A stretch of 11,432 bases of DNA from Deltaproteobacteria bacterium (GTDB lineage Bacteria; Desulfobacterota; Desulfobulbia; Desulfobulbales; BM004): the NCBI GenBank assembly GCA_019313095.1, contig JAFDBU010000264.1, positions 1 through 11,432 of the forward strand, in the 5' to 3' direction. The notes under the pieces were generated by a model that was not told the origin of the DNA, ran no database searches, and saw nothing but the letters and a program-made list of their open reading frames with translations. A program made the translations under genes and the position numbers. This document shows positions 2,257 through 11,432 of the stretch, piece after piece (the first letter of the stretch is position 1; every line of letters starts with the position of its first letter).

Positions 2257-3657
2257 TTACTTCATCAGGTAGAAGCCCAGTGTCCTGTCAGTGTATCCTG
2301 ATTCTTCAATGAATTCGCAACCGATATAGTAGTCTTTAATGGTTCTGACAACGACTTCTTTTTCGACAATTTCAGGTGGAACTTTATCCAGGGTAAACTT
2401 GACCTTGAGCCTGTCTCCAACCTGAACCCTTACCTTGTTTAAGGCAGTAAAGCCGAGTCCTCCCATGGAAATATTCTTAATCCGGCAGTTAATGGATACG
2501 CTTGGGAGTTTGCCGTCATCAGTCCAGCCGGGCGCAGAATCATCTGCCGTATAATAGCCTCCAATGGATACCTCTTTGCGATAATGTTTTCTGAAGTTTA
2601 GATTAATGCCATAGGTTGTTCCGCAGGGGCAGTTAACTGTCAGGAAATGTTTACGGCCCATATGTTTATCAACCGACATTTCGCGCACCAGCAGGCAGTC
2701 GGGACAGCTTAAAATAATTTGATTTTCTTTCTGGACATTAAGGTACTGAATGGGGATGTCTTTTTTTGACGCAACTGTCTTTTGAGCAGCTTCATGGGCG
2801 ATCTTTTTGACAACGTGGCCCTGGCTGTCAAACTTGCAGGCGTACATGAACGGGTCATGATAAAAGGTAAACCAGGCATTTTCGTGAATTCCCCTCTCCT
2901 CATATTTTTGTTTCAGGGAAATGGCATCCATGGGGAAGTTATCATAGGCCATGATCCAGAGAGGGTTGAAATGCGCATGGGTCGGCAGCAGATCTGCAAG
3001 GTGGTATGCAATTTCTTTACCGGACCAAATCCTGACAATCTGATGCCCCCTGGTGTGGCCGCTGGTGTGCTGAACTTCAACGCTATTACAAACAGTGAAA
3101 TTCCCTTCGATAAGCTGGAGATTGTCCGAATCCTTTAATTTTGAGAAATTTTCCGGCCAGTAGGTATTCTCTGACCGTATATTGGGATGCATGGCATCCT
3201 CCCATTCAAGCTTCTGGATAATATGCCTGGCATGGGGAAAGGCAAGCTCTTCCCCGCCGGCAGCATTTCGCATGACTATGCCGCCGGCATGGTCGAAATC
3301 ACAATGCGTCAGGATGACATAGTCAATATCCTGCCGTTTAAAACCCAATTTTTTAAGATCTTGAGGTATTTCCCAGTCTCTGGTGACCCGGAAAATTTTT
3401 TTCTGTTTGTCGCTGAGTTTATTGCCGAGTCCGGTTTCGACAAGTACAAGGCAATCAGGAGTTTTTATCAGAAGAGGAGAATTGAGGAGTTTGATATAAT
3501 TTTCTTCCAGCCTGGCAGAATCCTCTTCATCAACAACAGGGAATTTTTTTGACCACAAAACCTTGGTGACCACGCCAAACATGGTTCCGCCGTCTAACTC
3601 GAATTCACCGCCATTGAGCCAGAACATTTCAATATCGCCAAGTTTGAGACTTTCCAT
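2257..3657 (-). CDS. YtnP-like MBL-fold lactonase / zinc ribbon / PilZ fusion protein
   Basis: This 466-residue protein has three parts. Residues 1-275 are a metallo-beta-lactamase-fold hydrolase resembling Bacillus YtnP, a lactonase-like quorum-quenching protein. Shared landmarks as I remember YtnP are LDGGTMFGVV near the N-terminus, DYVILTHCDFDHAGG (112-126), TSGHTRGH (198-205), ADLLPTHAHFNPLWIMAYD (221-239) and WFTFYHD (262-268). The core motif reads H118-C-D120-F-D122-H123, so the second metal-binding His of HxHxDH is Asp. Residues 316-347 carry C318-PD-C321 and C343-P-C345, a zinc-ribbon pattern. Residues 353-466 are a PilZ domain with both c-di-GMP motifs, RKHYR (356-360) and NISMGG (395-400). 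No signal peptide or membrane segment is seen, so it is probably cytoplasmic. AAAGGG lies just before the ATG. The substrate is unknown; an acyl-homoserine lactone or another lactone is a guess from the family. Confidence 0.85.
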   Translation of the reverse strand: MESLKLGDIEMFWLNGGEFELDGGTMFGVVTKVLWSKKFPVVDEEDSARLEENYIKLLNSPLLIKTPDCLVLVETGLGNKLSDKQKKIFRVTRDWEIPQDLKKLGFKRQDIDYVILTHCDFDHAGGIVMRNAAGGEELAFPHARHIIQKLEWEDAMHPNIRSENTYWPENFSKLKDSDNLQLIEGNFTVCNSVEVQHTSGHTRGHQIVRIWSGKEIAYHLADLLPTHAHFNPLWIMAYDNFPMDAISLKQKYEERGIHENAWFTFYHDPFMYACKFDSQGHVVKKIAHEAAQKTVASKKDIPIQYLNVQKENQIILSCPDCLLVREMSVDKHMGRKHFLTVNCPCGTTYGINLNFRKHYRKEVSIGGYYTADDSAPGWTDDGKLPSVSINCRIKNISMGGLGFTALNKVRVQVGDRLKVKFTLDKVPPEIVEKEVVVRTIKDYYIGCEFIEESGYTDRTLGFYLMK

Positions 3658-3795: not shown

Positions 3796-3815
3796 TTTTT
3801 TTTTTTTTTTTTTTT
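3796..3815. repeat. Poly-T homopolymer of 20 bases
   Basis: There are twenty T in a row on the plus strand (A20 in the minus-strand transcripts), 138 bp upstream of the lactonase-PilZ start and 40 bp past the oadB stop. On the plus-strand side it is preceded by a small hairpin, CCCT-GAA-AGGG (3781-3791). There is no plus-strand gene for it to terminate. Such tracts slip readily in replication and in sequencing, so the true length may differ. Confidence 0.85.
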
Positions 3816-3855: not shown

Positions 3856-4983
3856 TTAAAATTTTCCCAAAGCTGACCATAACACACCTGCAGCTATTGC
3901 TGAACCGATGACACCGGCGACATTGGGTGCCATGGCATGCATAAGCAGGAAATTATTGGGATCTGCCTTCTGGCCAACCATCTGCACTACTCTGGCGGAA
4001 TCAGGTACAGCTGAAACACCTGCTGCTCCTATGAGCGGATTTATCTTTTCCCTTAAAAATAAATTCATAAACTTGGCAAACAGCACACCCCCCATGGTGG
4101 CAATGACAAAAGATAAGGCTCCAAGAGCAAAGATGAAAACCGACTTGGGCGTCAGAAATGTCTGGGCCTGGGTGCTCGCTCCCACTGTAAAACCAAGCAG
4201 AATTGTCACAATATCAATAAGGGCATGCCTGGCGGACGCGGCCAGGCGTTCCGTAACAGTACTCTCCTTGAGAAGGTTACCGAAGAAAAGCATGCCAAGC
4301 AGGGCAATGGAGCCAGGGGCGATCATAGCACAGATCAAAAAGGCAACGACCGGGAAGATGATCTTTTCCTTGCGCGAAACTACGCGCGGTGCCTTCATGT
4401 GTATTTTTCTTTCCTCTTCTGATGTGAAAAGGTACATGATGGGAGGCTGAATAACAGGCACAAGGGCCATGTATGAGTAAGCAGCAATTGCGATCGGGCC
4501 GAGGAGTTCCGGAGCCAGCATAGAGGAAAGGAAGATGGCAGTTGGGCCGTCCGCACCGCCTATGATGCCTATTGAACCTGCCTGAGCAGGACTAAAGCCT
4601 AGGTAAAGAGATCCCAGAAAAGTCAGGAATATACCTATCTGAGCGGCTGCCCCCAGAAGAATAAGTTTGGGGTTGGAAAGCATGGTGGAAAAATCTGTCA
4701 TCGCACCTATGCCGAGAAATATCAAGGGTGGATAGATACCCTTTGTCACCCCATAATACAGGTAGTAGAGAACACTGCCCGCGTCATACACTCCCACGAG
4801 CATGCCCTTTACCGGAGGTATATTGCCCACTATGATACCCAGGCCTATGGGCACCAGCAGTAATGGCTCATAATCCTTCACTACAGCGAGGTAGATAAAT
4901 ACAATTCCGATAAGGATCATGATGGCATTGCCGATTTCCAGGTGGGCAAAACCGGTGTTATGCAGGAACGTCTCAAAACTCAC
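3856..4983 (-). CDS. oadB: Na+-translocating decarboxylase beta subunit (OadB/GcdB/MmdB family)
   Basis: This membrane subunit decarboxylates carboxybiotin and couples it to Na+ transport out of the cell (or runs in reverse). The 375 residues are strongly hydrophobic with many membrane spans. IIGGADGPTAIF (141-151) contains Asp145, matching the Na+-binding Asp203 of Klebsiella OadB. AYSYMALVPVIQPP (168-181) contains Tyr171, matching Tyr229. HAMAPNVAGVIGSA (349-362) is the conserved C-terminal element. The start is set at GTG 4983: GGAGAG sits five bases upstream, and the product then begins MSFETFLHNTGF, the usual family N-terminus. An upstream ATG at 5046 would add 21 residues overlapping the biotin-carrier gene and is rejected. 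The gene is last in the oadG-biotin carrier-oadB operon. The sequence does not tell oxaloacetate, methylmalonyl-CoA and glutaconyl-CoA pumps apart. Confidence 0.95.
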   Translation of the reverse strand: MSFETFLHNTGFAHLEIGNAIMILIGIVFIYLAVVKDYEPLLLVPIGLGIIVGNIPPVKGMLVGVYDAGSVLYYLYYGVTKGIYPPLIFLGIGAMTDFSTMLSNPKLILLGAAAQIGIFLTFLGSLYLGFSPAQAGSIGIIGGADGPTAIFLSSMLAPELLGPIAIAAYSYMALVPVIQPPIMYLFTSEEERKIHMKAPRVVSRKEKIIFPVVAFLICAMIAPGSIALLGMLFFGNLLKESTVTERLAASARHALIDIVTILLGFTVGASTQAQTFLTPKSVFIFALGALSFVIATMGGVLFAKFMNLFLREKINPLIGAAGVSAVPDSARVVQMVGQKADPNNFLLMHAMAPNVAGVIGSAIAAGVLWSALGKF

Positions 4984-4988
4984 AGAGT

Positions 4989-4994
4989 CTCTCC
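4989..4994 (-). promoter_or_regulatory. Ribosome binding site fixing the GTG start of oadB
   Basis: GGAGAG on the minus strand lies five bases before GTG 4983 and just after the biotin-carrier stop (5000-5002). It decides in favour of the GTG start over the in-frame ATG at 5046. Confidence 0.7.
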
Positions 4995-4999
4995 ATATG

Positions 5000-5434
5000 T
5001 CAACCAATGATAATGAGTTCCTGCCCCTGGCTGACAATATCACCATCGCGTACCAGGATCTGTTTTACAATACCGTCCTGGCTGGCAGGGAGTTTATTTT
5101 CCAGTTTCATTGCCTCCATAATAAGCAGTTTCTGGCCTGCCTTAACCTTGTCTCCCTCACGGACAAAGATAGCCTTTACCTGGCCAGGCATGGGAGCAAT
5201 AACGCTAGCGCCGGATACTACAACGGTTGAAGCTGCAGCAGGAACTGGTTTAGGTCCTGTGACCTGTTCAGGCGCTGGCTTTGGTACAGCCTCGGAAAGG
5301 ATAAGCGTCTCGATCTGATTGATGGCAACAGTATGTTCCTGACCATTGACCTCAACGATAGCTTTATTTTCAGTAACTTTTTTGACTATTACCTCATAAT
5401 TGTTTTTGTTTATAGTCAGGTCATATTTTCGCAT
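5000..5434 (-). CDS. Free-standing biotin carrier subunit of the Na+-pumping decarboxylase (GcdC/MmdC type)
   Basis: The 144-residue protein carries CO2 on biotin between a soluble carboxyltransferase and the OadB pump. Residues 1-50 form a small beta-rich domain also seen ahead of biotin domains in this family. Residues ~50-72 are a Pro/Ala/Val linker that lets the biotin arm swing. Residues ~73-144 are the biotinyl domain with IAPMPGQV and the biotinylation motif EAMKLEN, modified at Lys110. The ATG at 5434 has TAAGGA just upstream, overlapping the oadG stop. The gene lies between oadG (11-bp gap) and oadB (16-bp gap) and is clearly co-transcribed. It needs the host biotin-protein ligase, which is not in the window. 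Confidence 0.95.
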   Translation of the reverse strand: MRKYDLTINKNNYEVIVKKVTENKAIVEVNGQEHTVAINQIETLILSEAVPKPAPEQVTGPKPVPAAASTVVVSGASVIAPMPGQVKAIFVREGDKVKAGQKLLIMEAMKLENKLPASQDGIVKQILVRDGDIVSQGQELIIIG

Positions 5435-5445
5435 GATAAAGTTCC

Positions 5446-5841
5446 TTAGCTTCTATTGTCAGGCAGATGACTGCGTACTGCAAGATTTCCTATTCTGCCG
5501 GCTGTCAACCAGGCGGATTCGCGAACTTCATATCGCTTCCAGGTAATTTTTTCAAATCTGGAGCTGCTCTCCTGCTCAAGGTGGAGGGCAACCGCTATGG
5601 CCAGCAGTAGCTCAGAGTCTTTTGCATCAACAGATTTTATTTCAGGAACAACCTTTTTCTCTTCCTTCCCTGCCATTAATTTTTGCGGCAGGGCAAGGAT
5701 TTTAGGCAGCAGGGCAATGTAGATGCTGATAAAGGAGAGTCCGGCAAAAACAATCAGCAGCCCCATAATACTGAACATTATATAGTTATGACCATTTTCA
5801 AAGAGGTTGGCTAAACCGATGTGGTCAAATGAAAAACCCAT
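5446..5841 (-). CDS. oadG: Na+-pump small anchor subunit (OadG/MmdD family)
   Basis: The 131-residue protein has one membrane helix (about 20-46, rich in Ile, Leu and Phe) followed by a soluble tail. That is the plan of OadG/MmdD subunits, which tie the carboxyltransferase to OadB. The tail has a charged linker (58-75), a helix beginning SELLLAIAVALHLEQ (76-90) and the terminal SAWLTAGRIGNL (109-120), an arrangement typical of the family's C-terminus. Sequence conservation in this family is low, so the call rests on size, topology, tail pattern and position directly before the biotin carrier and oadB. It is the first gene of the operon. Confidence 0.85.
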   Translation of the reverse strand: MGFSFDHIGLANLFENGHNYIMFSIMGLLIVFAGLSFISIYIALLPKILALPQKLMAGKEEKKVVPEIKSVDAKDSELLLAIAVALHLEQESSSRFEKITWKRYEVRESAWLTAGRIGNLAVRSHLPDNRS

Positions 5842-5947: not shown

Positions 5948-6088
5948 CCCATGCCAAAATTTAAAATTTATAGTATCATAACGCATTGTTATTACAGGTC
6001 ACTTTAATGGAAATGCACAATCCTCCCAAAAGGCAGTAATACCCGATTAGCTTAATTGTATAAAAACCGGCAGGCAAGAGCTATTTGT

Positions 6089-7519
6089 ATGGCTGAAAAC
6101 CACGATGAAACAGGATTGAAATCAAAAATTTTTGCCAGGTTGACCAGGGGCGAGTTCATAAAAGTCTGGGACGGCATCATTGGCATGGCCAGAAAAGCCC
6201 TGACAAAAAACGAAGGGATCGATCCGCGCTATGAAAACAGAGACCATCTGCAACGTTTAATCCATGACTGCATCTACGCCAAAGGCGGGGATGTCTCGGG
6301 CCGGGCCAGGACTGTAGAACTTGGTGCTGTTTACCTGCACCTTCCAGAAAAAGGGCGAGAAATGTTTCATGATATTCTGGCGCATGATTTTGATATTGAC
6401 CGGCAGGTTTTAACTGACAAGATCAAAGAGCTGGATGAGGCCCGAAACCAGAAAGAAGCAATTGCGGCTGAAATTGATCTGAAAAATGCCTTAACTCCGC
6501 CTCGCATAATTCTCCTGAAACAGTTCTCATCCCTGCCCGACGGCCTAAAACTGTTGATTGATATGCGGGCTGCCCTTCTGGCCAGAGCCCGGGAAGATCA
6601 GCGGCTTTATAAACTTTCCTTTGATATCAAAGAACTTCTCAGCGCCTGGTTTGATATCGGCATGCTGGACCTGCAGGAGATTACCTGGAATTCATCGGCT
6701 GCCCTTTTGGAAAAACTGATTGAATATGAGGCGGTCCATGAAATCCATTCATGGACCGATCTGCACAAGAGACTTGATTCAAACCGGTTATGCTTTGCTT
6801 TTTTCCATAATAAGATGCCTTCTGAACCATTGATTTTTGTAGAAGTTGCCCTGGTCAATAAATTGAGTTCCAATATCCAGGAACTGCTCAATAAAGAGGA
6901 TGAGAAAGTTGAACCGGAACAGGCCAGTACGGCAATTTTTTATTCAATATCCAATACCCAGCCTGGCCTGGCCGGCATAAGCCTTGGAAACTTTCTAATA
7001 AAAACGGTGGTACAGAAACTCTCAACCGAATATGACAACCTGAAACATTTCGCAACGCTCTCGCCGGTTCCCGGATTCAGAAAGTGGCTCGACCCAAAAC
7101 TTGCCGACGGCGATGAAAATGAACTCCGACCAAAGGAAACTGCTAGTATCAGGGCCCGTTTTGTCTGTGATAATGCGGCCCTGAAATTGGCTGAGATTTT
7201 GGCAGGCGAATGGTGGCGGGACAATGAAACTGCGGAACTTGTGAAGCCAGTTCTCGCTAGGCTGTGTGTGCAATTTCTGCTTGAAGAGAAAAAAAGGGAC
7301 GGGGCGCTTGATCCAGTTGCCAATTTCCACCTTTCGAACGGTGCCAGGCTGGAAAGGGTAAACTGGCTTGCCGACCTCACTGCAACAGGTATGAAACGCT
7401 CCTACGGCATCATGGTCAATTATTTTTACCAACTTTCAGACATTGAGAAAAATCACGAGGAATATGTGACTCGGGGACACATAGTAGCCAGTCGGAGCGT
7501 GAAATCATTCCTTAAATGA
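6089..7519 (+). CDS. Malonyl-CoA decarboxylase
   Basis: This enzyme converts malonyl-CoA to acetyl-CoA and CO2 without biotin. At 476 residues the length fits the family. The N-terminal third is a helical domain (about 1-190). The C-terminal GNAT-like catalytic domain shows LHKRLDSNRLCFAFFH (225-240), PLIFVEVAL (247-255), FYSISNTQPGLAGISLGNFL (284-303), TLSPVPGFRKWL (323-334) and PVANFHLSNGARL (409-421). By alignment from memory with human MLYCD, Ser325 in SPVPGF and His414 in NFHLSNG match catalytic Ser329 and His423. ATG 6089 is used; a TTG at 6056 would add 11 residues, and neither has a strong ribosome binding site. The gene is divergent from the Na+-pump operon and converges on the carboxyltransferase operon with a 25-bp gap, so it has its own promoter. 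It may remove malonyl-CoA produced when the neighbouring carboxyltransferase acts on acetyl-CoA (inference). Confidence 0.93.
   Translation: MAENHDETGLKSKIFARLTRGEFIKVWDGIIGMARKALTKNEGIDPRYENRDHLQRLIHDCIYAKGGDVSGRARTVELGAVYLHLPEKGREMFHDILAHDFDIDRQVLTDKIKELDEARNQKEAIAAEIDLKNALTPPRIILLKQFSSLPDGLKLLIDMRAALLARAREDQRLYKLSFDIKELLSAWFDIGMLDLQEITWNSSAALLEKLIEYEAVHEIHSWTDLHKRLDSNRLCFAFFHNKMPSEPLIFVEVALVNKLSSNIQELLNKEDEKVEPEQASTAIFYSISNTQPGLAGISLGNFLIKTVVQKLSTEYDNLKHFATLSPVPGFRKWLDPKLADGDENELRPKETASIRARFVCDNAALKLAEILAGEWWRDNETAELVKPVLARLCVQFLLEEKKRDGALDPVANFHLSNGARLERVNWLADLTATGMKRSYGIMVNYFYQLSDIEKNHEEYVTRGHIVASRSVKSFLK
6732..6758. repeat. Perfect 11-bp inverted repeat inside the malonyl-CoA decarboxylase gene
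   Basis: CGGTCCATGAA (6732-6742) and TTCATGGACCG (6748-6758) are exact reverse complements around a five-base loop, ATCCA. The repeat lies over codons for AVHEIHSWTD, a stretch conserved in the family. In mRNA it would form a stable stem-loop in mid-gene. Confidence 0.85.
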
Positions 7520-7544: not shown

Positions 7545-9545
7545 TCAGGGCGCAATCACACAAAGAATATCATTTTTAGCCACATGATCTCCCACCCCCA
7601 GATTGACCTTCGTGATGGTGCCTGAAATAGGTGCAGGAAGAGCATTCTCCATTTTCATAGCCTCAAGGATCAGAATGGTTTCCCCTTCATTCACCTTGTC
7701 ACCTTCTTTTTTGTCTAGCCCGACAATCATGCCCGGCATGGGTGCTATGAGCGGTGTGCCGCCACTGTCATCAACAGCGGCCGGTGCTGGTTCTTTTGGC
7801 GCTGAAACAACAGCAGCCCTCCTGGCAGGGGCTGATGCTGCCGGGGCAACCCTGGCAGGCCTTGGAGGCGGAACAGCCTGCCTGACAGCATGTATGCCGG
7901 GCGAGCCATCAATATCTTCAACCTCAACTTCAAAGTATTCGCCGTCCACAAGGACATTAAATTTCCGCAGGTTCTCACTCATGGCCGGGACAATTTTCTC
8001 TTTTTTCTCTGTCAGTTTGCCGGCTTTTGCCTTGACGACGAGCTCCTGTTCAGCTTTTACGTCCTCCATGCTACGCGGCATAACTTCAGGCGGTACAGGT
8101 TCGACGCCGTACTTCCATTTCAGGAACCTTTTGCCAGTAACCGGATAAAGGGCATAAATCAGAATATCATCCATGTCTTTGGCCAGATCCTTTATTTCTG
8201 CCCTGGCCTTTTCAAGTTCGGGTTCCAGGACTTCCGCGGGCCGACAGGTAATAGGCTCCTCACCTCGCTGATATCCTTTTAGGGCCTTTTTCTGCACCTC
8301 CGGATTGATAGGAACTGCTGTTTTGCCGTATAATCCGTAGCACAAGTCTTTCACCTGACCGGTGATCATCTTATAGCGCTCATCACCTTCATCAAACAGG
8401 ACATTATTGACTGTCTGTGTCCCGACTATCTGGCTGGTTGGGGTCACGAGAGGGATCTGGCCCAGGTCTTTTCTGACCCGGGGGAGTTCTGCATAAACCT
8501 GGTCAATTTTATCCAGGGCATCCATTTCACGCAGCTGATTGACCAGGTTGGAGAGCATGCCGCCCGGAGTCTGGTGCAGAAGAACATTGATGTCGATGAT
8601 GGACATTTTGTTATCTGCGAGCAGGTGCCGGTATTTGGGCACGATCTCTTTTTCAAATATCTCATTGATCCGGGCCAGGAGGTTGATATCGAACCCTGTA
8701 TCCCGGTTGGTGCCGAGCAGTGCCATAACCATGGGCTCGACCGCCGGGTGTGATGTCCGGTAGGCATAAGGAGACATACAGGTGTCAACTATATCGGCGC
8801 CGGCCTCAATTGCCTTGAGGTGGGTCATGGGAGCCATACCGGAGGTGAAATGACTGTGCAGATGAAGTGGCGCCTTAACTGCCTGTTTCAAGGCCTTGAA
8901 CAGGGGAAATGCATCATAGGGGGCCATAAGCCCGGCCATATCCTTGACACAGATCGAATCAGCACCCATTGCTTCCAGTTCTTTAGCCTTGGCAACGTAA
9001 TAATCCAGGTTGTAGACATCACCGCCCATACGCGGCTCGGTCATTGAGTAGCAGATACACCCCTGGAAATGTTTACCGGTTTTTTTGATACCTTTGACTA
9101 CTGTTTCAAAATTGCGGTAATCATTCAAGGCGTCAAAGGTTCTGAATACGTCCATACCGTTGGCTGCCGCCCGGTCGACAAAAGCCTCGGCCACATCATC
9201 AGCGTAATTGCGGTATCCCACCAGGTTCTGAGCCCGCAGCAGCATTGAAAATGGGGTTTTCTTGGCATATTTCTTAAGTGTTCTGATCCTCTCCCATGGG
9301 TCCTCATTCAAAAAACGGTGCATGGCGTCAAATGTGGCGCCGCCCCAGGTTTCCAGAGCCCAGAAGCCGACCTCGTCCATCAACTCGGCAACCGGGATCA
9401 TGTCCTCAGTCCTGCCTCTGGTGGCAAACAGGGACTGATGCCCATCGCGCAGAGTCAGGTCCATAACCTTGACCGGATTTTCGGCCTTTGGCCGGTCTTT
9501 ACGGTAATCCATCTCTGTGTTTTTTACGACGATATCGCTGCTCAT
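7545..9545 (-). CDS. oadA: Pyruvate/oxaloacetate carboxyltransferase with fused biotin domain (OadA/PycB/5S type)
   Basis: The 666-residue protein moves CO2 between carboxybiotin and pyruvate, giving or using oxaloacetate. Residues ~26-290 form the HMGL-like TIM barrel: LTLRDGHQS (30-38) has metal ligand Asp34, CVKDMAGL (199-206) has Lys201, expected to be carbamylated, and HLHSHFTSGM (228-237) has metal ligands His230 and His232. Residues ~300-500 are the conserved carboxylase domain. Residues ~540-590 are a Pro/Ala/Arg-rich linker, and ~590-666 the biotinyl domain with EAMKMEN, biotinylated at Lys631. AGGAAG precedes the ATG. It is the last gene of the pccB-ABM-68aa operon. Candidate roles are oxaloacetate decarboxylase alpha subunit, 5S+1.3S parts of methylmalonyl-CoA:pyruvate transcarboxylase, or pyruvate carboxylase subunit B. 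The absence of a biotin carboxylase gene nearby favours the first two. Confidence 0.94.
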   Translation of the reverse strand: MSSDIVVKNTEMDYRKDRPKAENPVKVMDLTLRDGHQSLFATRGRTEDMIPVAELMDEVGFWALETWGGATFDAMHRFLNEDPWERIRTLKKYAKKTPFSMLLRAQNLVGYRNYADDVAEAFVDRAAANGMDVFRTFDALNDYRNFETVVKGIKKTGKHFQGCICYSMTEPRMGGDVYNLDYYVAKAKELEAMGADSICVKDMAGLMAPYDAFPLFKALKQAVKAPLHLHSHFTSGMAPMTHLKAIEAGADIVDTCMSPYAYRTSHPAVEPMVMALLGTNRDTGFDINLLARINEIFEKEIVPKYRHLLADNKMSIIDINVLLHQTPGGMLSNLVNQLREMDALDKIDQVYAELPRVRKDLGQIPLVTPTSQIVGTQTVNNVLFDEGDERYKMITGQVKDLCYGLYGKTAVPINPEVQKKALKGYQRGEEPITCRPAEVLEPELEKARAEIKDLAKDMDDILIYALYPVTGKRFLKWKYGVEPVPPEVMPRSMEDVKAEQELVVKAKAGKLTEKKEKIVPAMSENLRKFNVLVDGEYFEVEVEDIDGSPGIHAVRQAVPPPRPARVAPAASAPARRAAVVSAPKEPAPAAVDDSGGTPLIAPMPGMIVGLDKKEGDKVNEGETILILEAMKMENALPAPISGTITKVNLGVGDHVAKNDILCVIAP

Positions 9546-10130: not shown

Positions 10131-11432
10131 TTATAACGGTATATTGCCATGCTTTTTCATGGGATTGGTGTCACGTTTGTTTTTTAAGAGCTGCAAGGCC
10201 TTGATAATCCGGAAACGGGTTCTGGCCGGTTCTATGATGTCGTCAATATATCCCCGCTTGGCAGCCACAAAAGGATTTACCACGGCTTCAGCATATTCCT
10301 GCTCCTTTTGCTCTAGATAAGCCTGCGGATCGTCTGTTTTTTTAGCCTGACGCGCGTAAAGCACTTCAACCGCGCCCTTGGCGCCCATTACCGCAATTTC
10401 AGCAGTAGGCCAGGCATAGTTGATATCACCCCTAAGATGTTTGGAGGACATGACGCAATAGGCCCCGCCATAGGCCTTTCGGGTGATGATGGTAACTTTG
10501 GGGATTGTGGCTTCAGCAAATGCATAGAGCATCTTGGCGCCGTTTCTGATTACACCGCCATATTCCTGGACGGTGCCGGGCAGAAACCCGGGGACATCAA
10601 CAAAGGTAACAATCGGGATGTTAAAACAATCGCAGAAACGCACAAATCTGGCGCCCTTAACCGACGAATCTATATCCAGTACACCGGCCAGATATTCCGA
10701 CTGATTTGCAACGATACCAACCGGATAACCATCGTAACGGGCAAAGCCGATAACAAGGTTTGGCGCAAATTCCGCCATGATTTCGAGGAAATCGCCATAA
10801 TCAACTGTCCTCCGGATAACTTCCTTCATGTCATAGGAAACGTTGGGGTTTTCCGGGATAATCTGGTTGAGAAAATCGTCTGCTCTATCAGGTGGGTCAT
10901 CACACTCAACAACCGGCGGACTTTCCATGTTGTTCTGGGGTATGAATGATAAAAGTTTCTTAATGTATTCAATGGCATCCGCCCCGGATTCCGCCGCATA
11001 ATGAATAACCCCACTTTTAGTGGCATGAACGGTCGCACCGCCGAGCTCCTCAACAGTTACATCCTCATGGGTCACGGATTTCACGACCTTGGGGCCGGTG
11101 AGAAACATGTAGCTGTTGTTTTTGACCATAATGGAAAAGTCGGTTAAGGCCGGGGAATAGACGGCGCCTCCTGCACAGGGGCCGAAAATAGCTGAAATCT
11201 GCGGGATAACACCTGAACTCATGACATTGCGCAGAAAAATATCCGTATATCCGGCCAGACTTTCTATACCTTCCTGAATCCTGGCGCCGCCGGAATCATT
11301 GAGCCCGATGACCGGTGCCCCGTTTTTCATGGCCAGATCCATGATCTTGCATACTTTTTCAGCAAATGTCTCTGAAAGCGATCCGCCAAATACGGTAAAA
11401 TCTTGAGAAAAGACATAGACGACCCGGCCGGC
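10131..11432 (-). CDS. pccB: Acyl-CoA carboxylase/carboxyltransferase beta subunit, PccB type (N-terminus outside window)
   Basis: This subunit transfers CO2 between carboxybiotin and an acyl-CoA, probably propionyl-CoA/methylmalonyl-CoA. The frame is open to the window edge: 433 residues are visible and perhaps 80-90 are missing. Both crotonase-like halves are seen. The N-half has SGGARIQEG and the oxyanion loop [17 protein letters not shown]. The C-half has [15 protein letters not shown], the second oxyanion loop [18 protein letters not shown] and [19 protein letters not shown], very close to human PCCB. At the position where propionyl-CoA enzymes usually have Asp (GGAYDVM) this protein has Cys (codon 10455-10457). 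It is the most upstream visible gene of the operon; the promoter is outside. It could be the 12S part of a methylmalonyl-CoA:pyruvate transcarboxylase, MmdA of a decarboxylase, or PccB; no biotin carboxylase partner is visible. Confidence 0.93.

Follow-up and report, generated by a model that had tools for sequence, protein, structure and literature searches.

Which part of the cell's physiology is served by a protein that joins an MBL-fold hydrolase to a PilZ domain in one chain? Such a protein is encoded in the window, i.e., the whole stretch of 11,432 nucleotides analyzed here, and a preliminary description had taken it for an enzyme whose hydrolysis of external signals is switched by c-di-GMP. 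The receptors of this second messenger known to act via PilZ are mostly involved in controlling motility, the export of polysaccharides or transcription, and the controlled output proteins include BcsA, Alg44 and YcgR. To our knowledge, no PilZ-controlled output protein combines this domain with an MBL-fold hydrolase, and none was found here. In BcsA, Alg44 and YcgR as well as in the PilZ-DnaK chaperones of Myxococcus, as the latter are presented in the available excerpt of PMC10313047, PilZ is likewise part of the same chain as its effector or acts on it.

Results

Architecture and Selection of the Fusion Gene

The open frame covers exactly positions 2257-3657 of the minus strand (Table 1), and an MBL-fold domain, a CxxC/CxC ribbon and a PilZ domain are present on a single chain of 466 residues, as had been proposed; the two outer domains are confirmed by Pfam matches. 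The N-terminal part matches PF00753 (residues 62–234, E 8.6e-14, above the gathering score of 22.7 bits) and the C-terminal part PF07238 (residues 375–464, 32 bits versus a gathering score of 22.5 bits), while no Rfam family was found in the window at gathering cut-offs. The AlphaFold model used (pLDDT 84.8, pTM 0.63; an earlier 23-row model with a pLDDT of 65.1 was set aside as poor) predicts a flexible linker, with a mean pLDDT of 54 across residues 291–300, and fold searches with this model gave only MBL-type folds among the matches listed.

Table 1. Features of the fusion gene and of its neighborhood (positions in the window; residues refer to the fusion protein).
Feature	Position	Strand	Evidence
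Whole fusion gene, 466 aa	2257..3657	-	
MBL-fold hydrolase domain, residues 1–285	2803..3657	-	
Linker, residues 286–312, fastest-changing part	2722..2802	-	dN/dS
Four-cysteine ribbon, residues 313–354; C318, C321, C343, C345	2596..2721	-	cysteine conservation
PilZ domain, residues 355–466	2260..2595	-	PF07238, E 1.7e-7
Metal motif H118-C-D120-F-D122-H123 (HxDxDH), with H201, D222 and H267 expected as additional ligands	3289..3306	-	conservation
RKHYR, RxxxR ligand motif starting at residue 356	2578..2592	-	R356, R360 conservation
NISMGG, (D/N)xSxxG ligand motif starting at residue 395	2458..2475	-	S397, G400 conservation
OadB-type decarboxylase beta subunit, 198 bp upstream of the fusion gene	3856..5046	-	PF03977, E 1.4e-152
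Biotin carrier subunit of the cluster	5000..5434	-	PF00364
OAD gamma-like subunit	5446..5841	-	PF04277
Malonyl-CoA decarboxylase inside the cluster, opposite strand	6056..7519	+	PF05292, E 1.2e-102
Pyruvate carboxylase/oxaloacetate decarboxylase alpha-type (OadA-type) subunit with biotin domain	7545..9545	-	PF02436, PF00682, PF00364
Carboxyltransferase (PccB-like), frame continuing to the window edge	10131..11342	-	PF01039, E 9.5e-168

In a protein search, the best 120 of 6226 matches were considered, 70 of which are full-length fusions (>420 aa; 90%-identity clusters) with identities of 51–93%; residue counts among fusions given below refer to this set. Comparison with L007, the closest fused locus compared, resulted in dN/dS values of 0.100 for the MBL domain, 0.037 for the ribbon, 0.095 for PilZ and 0.365 for the linker. 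As dS was saturated or undefined in many pairs, domain values are quoted for the window and L007 only, the other existing values being well below 1; for the linker, 0.12–0.49 was obtained in 11/21 pairs giving a value. All three domains of the fusion are under purifying selection.

Taxonomic Spread and Origin

For mapping the spread of the architecture, a step already suggested along with the original reading, 257 genomes of the order were searched with a C-terminal profile at E 0.001 and with the MBL half at E 1e-30. Only a single genus of uncultured bacteria, the window's own, yielded the fusion, in seven of its nine genomes (G000–G005 and G008; the remaining two gave no MBL match) versus none of the 248 other genomes of the order. 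As the C-terminal matches were listed down to about E 1e-29, this absence outside the genus rests on the MBL-half search, where no match from other genera lay in a frame of more than 380 aa. In G004 and G005, the gene is truncated where the contig stops, and the copy in G002 (L009/L253) bears one in-frame stop in the MBL part, attributable to either a sequencing error or a decaying copy. A scan of named genomes revealed six MAG contigs carrying both halves (L007–L012, assigned to Desulfobulbaceae, Desulfobacterales or Deltaproteobacteria), which, judged by length, are the same contigs as in six of the genomes above and not independent cases, and 13 more distant matches (L013–L025, 29–35% identity) without an MBL half in the DNA examined. 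Overall, the fusion was sought in the sampled genomes, this one named-genome scan and the one protein search, with 395 genomes drawn for searches at the phylum level.

Both halves are also found separately. The ribbon-PilZ profile matches 190 of the 257 genomes, comprising the seven fusion bearers and 183 genomes without fusion, and the MBL half was detected in 113, with 106 of them holding an unfused gene. In the tree of MBL sequences (rows <180 residues left out), 16 fused halves cluster together (SH-aLRT support of 95) when P0074, a sequence on a long branch, is left out, whereas they are not a single group (two changes) when it is included. In the ribbon-PilZ tree (rows of ≤120 residues left out), the ten fused halves tested, among them P0074, form one group with a support of 99. 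Judged from these sequence comparisons, one fusion event would most simply account for the distribution. Side-by-side unfused genes had been considered as forerunner of the fusion and were rejected, as a ribbon-PilZ stretch lies near the unfused MBL gene at only 1/105 loci (G013), and there in convergent orientation.

The Catalytic Half

The best NCBIfam family for the MBL half is YtnP (NF047919, E 1.8e-90). However, the score of 302.9 bits is below the family cut-off of 425, and three unfused relatives reach 300.7, 301.3 and 325 bits, so that the designation YtnP-like is apt for the nearest family but does not extend to membership. According to the fold search, the nearest characterized folds are those of lactonases, with AidC, AiiA and GcL among them, and of organophosphate hydrolases. 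The YtnP motif for AHL hydrolysis, HxHxDH, is absent, and the fusion shows HxDxDH instead, a feature not mentioned in the preliminary description. H118, D120, H123, H201, D222 and H267 are kept in all 70 full-length fusions and D122 in 69 (best 120 of 6226 matches considered). The same seven ligands are present in 39/39 unfused homologues, and D120 is retained in 104/105 further unfused loci, the remaining one not being covered, as well as in 6/6 distant ones. A carboxylate at the position of the second histidine is known from other metal sites of MBL-fold proteins, for example, the flavodiiron proteins with their HxExDH di-iron site. The fusion differs from these by the missing flavodoxin domain and by a similarity far lower than to YtnP-type folds.

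In a paper on a Bacillus YtnP, HXHXDH is stated in the available excerpt to be required for AHL hydrolysis (PMC9201388), whereas HxDxDH occurs also in Y2-AiiA from Acinetobacter, which is described as a putative lactonase of unproved activity (PMC6146095). Hence, the motif found here would argue against lactonase action, albeit not decisively. The staphylococcal structure 3esh (S. aureus, titled probable metal-dependent hydrolase) carries the histidine form in the alignment; from this protein and the YtnP lactonases of NF047919, the fusion is set apart by its score below the cut-off, the HxDxDH motif, the ribbon-PilZ extension and the metabolic neighborhood. An additional histidine, H227, was considered as offsetting D120. 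The idea was dropped because H227 varies, being kept in only 73/105 unfused loci (two not covered) and in 1/6 distant ones, while D120 is found in all covered loci. In the exceptional P0074, a divergent fusion of 51% identity, D122 is replaced by K with the other ligands and the sensor motifs retained; this protein is perhaps a paralogue with changed or lost activity.

The Ribbon-PilZ Half

Both PilZ ligand motifs are intact, as claimed before, and conserved throughout the 70 full-length fusions (best 120 of 6226 matches considered): R356, R360, S397 and G400 are present in all, N395 in 69 (D in one) and G399 in 68. The sequence thus shows the RxxxR and (D/N)xSxxG elements of c-di-GMP-binding PilZ domains. 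The updated consensus (RxxxRhxh/DhSxxG; PMC8322970) is matched except at two residues, namely K361, which occupies the first of the positions assigned to hydrophobic residues, and N395, where the consensus has D. The CxxC/CxC pairs were also verified, and C318, C321, C343 and C345 are kept in 70/70 fusions. As the curated family Zn_ribbon_CSL matches weakly (E 0.19, 11.9 bits versus a cut-off of 29.2) and no ribbon family is above its cut-off, the term zinc ribbon rests on these four conserved cysteines. In a profile search of the C-terminal half against solved structures, YpfA was the sole match (E 0.19). GGDEF proteins are encoded in 9/9 genomes of the genus, and c-di-GMP is therefore very likely made there.

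Closely comparable are unfused ribbon-PilZ proteins of Desulfobacterota, mostly of about 150–175 aa and annotated as hypothetical or PilZ domain-containing, which lack the enzyme part and share 27–40% identity with the fused one. In an alignment of 70 of these, chosen from 95 listed (P0140 onward), each cysteine is kept in 69, and R356, R360, N or D at position 395, S397 and G400 are each found in all 70; the C-terminal LGFYL is likewise present in nearly all. One such homologue in the window's own genome (G000:C134:2653-3116; L027, L028) is interrupted by stops and spread across two frames. Other contexts of the unit are a position C-terminal to an AAA_22 ATPase in a 550-aa frame (L248:166-1815, minus strand), an arrangement with apparently two tandem ribbons ahead of the PilZ part (L250, G011:C8:30000-36000; by eye) and two combinations with another PilZ-like stretch recognized by eye in genome G387 (L257:1969-3393 and L258:1208-2320, both plus strand).

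Genomic Context and Linkage to Propionate Genes

The fusion gene lies in a carboxylase/decarboxylase gene cluster (Table 1) and directly follows OadB in four of the five viewable loci, i.e., in the window, L252, L253 and L011, while L251 differs. A simple scan found no terminator-like site on the minus strand between OadB and the fusion gene. In the same interval, a run of 20 T (positions 3796-3815) is located beside the palindrome CCCTGAAAGGG. Homologues of the malonyl-CoA decarboxylase are also present in L008 and L011.

Context was further assessed for the unfused MBL genes, using 105 loci, one per genome, from the 106 genomes, with up to about 8 kb on each side where contigs allowed. The probes for methylmalonyl-CoA mutase (MCM), MeaB, the B12-binding protein, an epimerase-like protein (glyoxalase fold), PCC and OAD were Pfam-checked, and a locus was considered linked with at least one of PccA, PccB, MCM, MeaB and OadB. 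Forty unfused ribbon-PilZ loci from the same order (39 genomes, 19 with mutase), hand-picked from the better-scoring matches, served as controls. Pathway genes were found at 40/105 unfused MBL loci and at 0/40 control loci (Fisher p 2e-7, uncorrected for kinship). Linkage is consequently more frequent than in the controls, although 65/105 loci are unlinked, nine of them with less than 1.5 kb of upstream sequence. Restricting the comparison to mutase-bearing genomes gives 38/61 versus 0/19. At 25 loci, OadB (14 cases) or PccA (11 cases) directly precedes the MBL gene on the same strand at a distance of 9–268 bp, and several loci show a full run of B12-binding protein, MeaB, MCM, epimerase and PccB, then PccA or OadB, followed by MBL. 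The 40 linked loci span 15 genera of five families, and the 25 downstream cases eight genera of three families. On the MBL tree, at least 11 changes are required to account for linkage, so that this association is not one inherited block.

Pathway genes were not found on the 3.4-kb contig of the 106th genome (G101, MBL 188 bp from the contig end), near the second MBL copy in G165 or at the six MBL genes from a distant family of the same phylum. Other neighborhoods exist as well. At 13 loci of one genus (L105 and related), the unfused gene comes after a co-oriented glycerophosphodiester phosphodiesterase gene, with gaps of 31–41 bp in the six closest cases shown, and in another genus it is near alanine dehydrogenase and a PPDK-like gene. 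Across the 257 genomes, MBL and methylmalonyl-CoA mutase show no association (odds ratio 0.97), and the mutase was not detected in 44/106 genomes with unfused MBL. Considering these genomes and the additional neighborhoods, the MBL enzyme cannot serve methylmalonyl-CoA alone, and the data are more in line with a wider hydrolase role, often recruited to the methylmalonyl-CoA pathway, than with a dedicated step in it. A short mutase type of about 550 aa, distinguished by eye among the matches listed, occurs together with MBL in 50/64 genomes, and 28/47 short-mutase genomes with unfused MBL are linked (among the matches listed); as this split was made after the fact, it is suggestive only.

Discussion

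The fusion is a genuine, conserved and unusual protein, in which known domains form a new architecture. In titles and abstract starts of the open-licence literature, neither an MBL-PilZ fusion nor a ribbon-PilZ family nor a methylmalonyl-CoA operon with an MBL gene was found described, and the initial statement that no characterized protein with this domain order is known agrees with this survey. Its probable role is less obvious. That two genes were joined by an assembly or reading-frame artefact has a practically negligible probability: although the entry pairs P0078/P0122 and P0076/P0127 are on equal-sized contigs and could be split copies, 70 full-length homologues at 51–93% identity, the occurrence of both halves on six public, named MAG contigs (L007–L012) and purifying selection with dN/dS well below 1 on both sides of the join rule in favor of one gene, settling the doubt that had been raised about the frame. 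It is improbable, too, that the fused MBL part has lost its catalytic activity and works as a scaffold or ligand sensor. The aspartate in place of the second motif histidine and the further change of D122 to K in the divergent P0074 are what this proposal can draw on, yet the other ligands are invariant in the fusions considered, the same residues are kept in the unfused relatives, dN/dS of the MBL domain is low (window versus L007) and a carboxylate at this place is familiar from flavodiiron-type sites.

Equally improbable is a c-di-GMP-switched quorum-quenching lactonase opening AHL or other lactone signals of neighbors, formerly the leading reading. It would be backed by YtnP being the nearest NCBIfam family, by AidC, AiiA and GcL as modeled fold neighbors, by the shared motif in Y2-AiiA, putative as that lactonase is in the source excerpt (PMC6146095), and by LuxI matches in four genomes with the unfused gene (G083, G098, G109, and G113). 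However, we reject it as leading explanation on the basis of the YtnP score under the cut-off, the absence of HxHxDH, the metabolic gene linkage, which holds also in these four LuxI-bearing genomes, and the scarcity of signaling genes: a LuxI-type synthase was found in 0/9 genomes of the genus and 6/257 of the order, and a LuxR autoinducer-binding domain in 0/9 of the genus, with seven of these nine genomes less than 90% complete. Accordingly, the proposed hydrolysis of external signals is not upheld. Less remote, if still rather unlikely, is a general housekeeping hydrolase that is not specifically connected with propionate and acts in the repair of lactone, ester or thioester damage; the ribbon-PilZ part would bring this enzyme to a c-di-GMP-dependent partner or site rather than switching its catalysis. 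The 44 genomes lacking a detected mutase, the several other neighborhoods of the unfused gene and the joining of ribbon-PilZ to other parts, i.e., the AAA ATPase in L248 and the PilZ-like stretches seen by eye in L257 and L258, are compatible with this role, against which stands the linkage to propionyl/methylmalonyl-CoA genes recurring in 15 genera of five families and in none of the 40 controls.

We tentatively favor, at somewhat less than an even chance, a cytoplasmic MBL hydrolase that would be tied to propionate/methylmalonyl-CoA metabolism and, in one genus, be under c-di-GMP control. The MBL half would then act as a two-metal hydrolase alongside propionyl/methylmalonyl-CoA metabolism, with the CoA thioesters, lactones or esters arising in the propionate pathway as likeliest substrates, and the genus would have gained, in the simplest case through one fusion event, the ribbon-PilZ module that many members of the order encode as a stand-alone protein. 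In this metabolic scheme, c-di-GMP would bind to RxxxR/NxSxxG at the N-terminal edge of PilZ, beside the ribbon, and might reposition ribbon-PilZ against the MBL domain across the flexible linker. The rate of hydrolysis would thereby be raised or lowered, and the motile/sessile signal could adjust the propionate flux. Among these steps, the propionate link appears to be the best supported and the allostery the least. The full proposal, in which c-di-GMP acts inside one polypeptide on a propionyl/methylmalonyl-CoA enzyme and sets the energy-yielding carbon flux without a transcription step, is unlikely to hold as a whole. Still, the tentative tie to central metabolism is better supported than the one to external signals, and suggests that c-di-GMP may control metabolism directly and not the destruction of outside signals.

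If true, a central-carbon enzyme with a built-in PilZ receptor would represent a direct wire from lifestyle signaling to metabolism. The linkage provides a functional lead for a YtnP-like branch whose members could be misannotated as quorum-quenching lactonases, and the findings point to ribbon-PilZ as a reusable sensor module.
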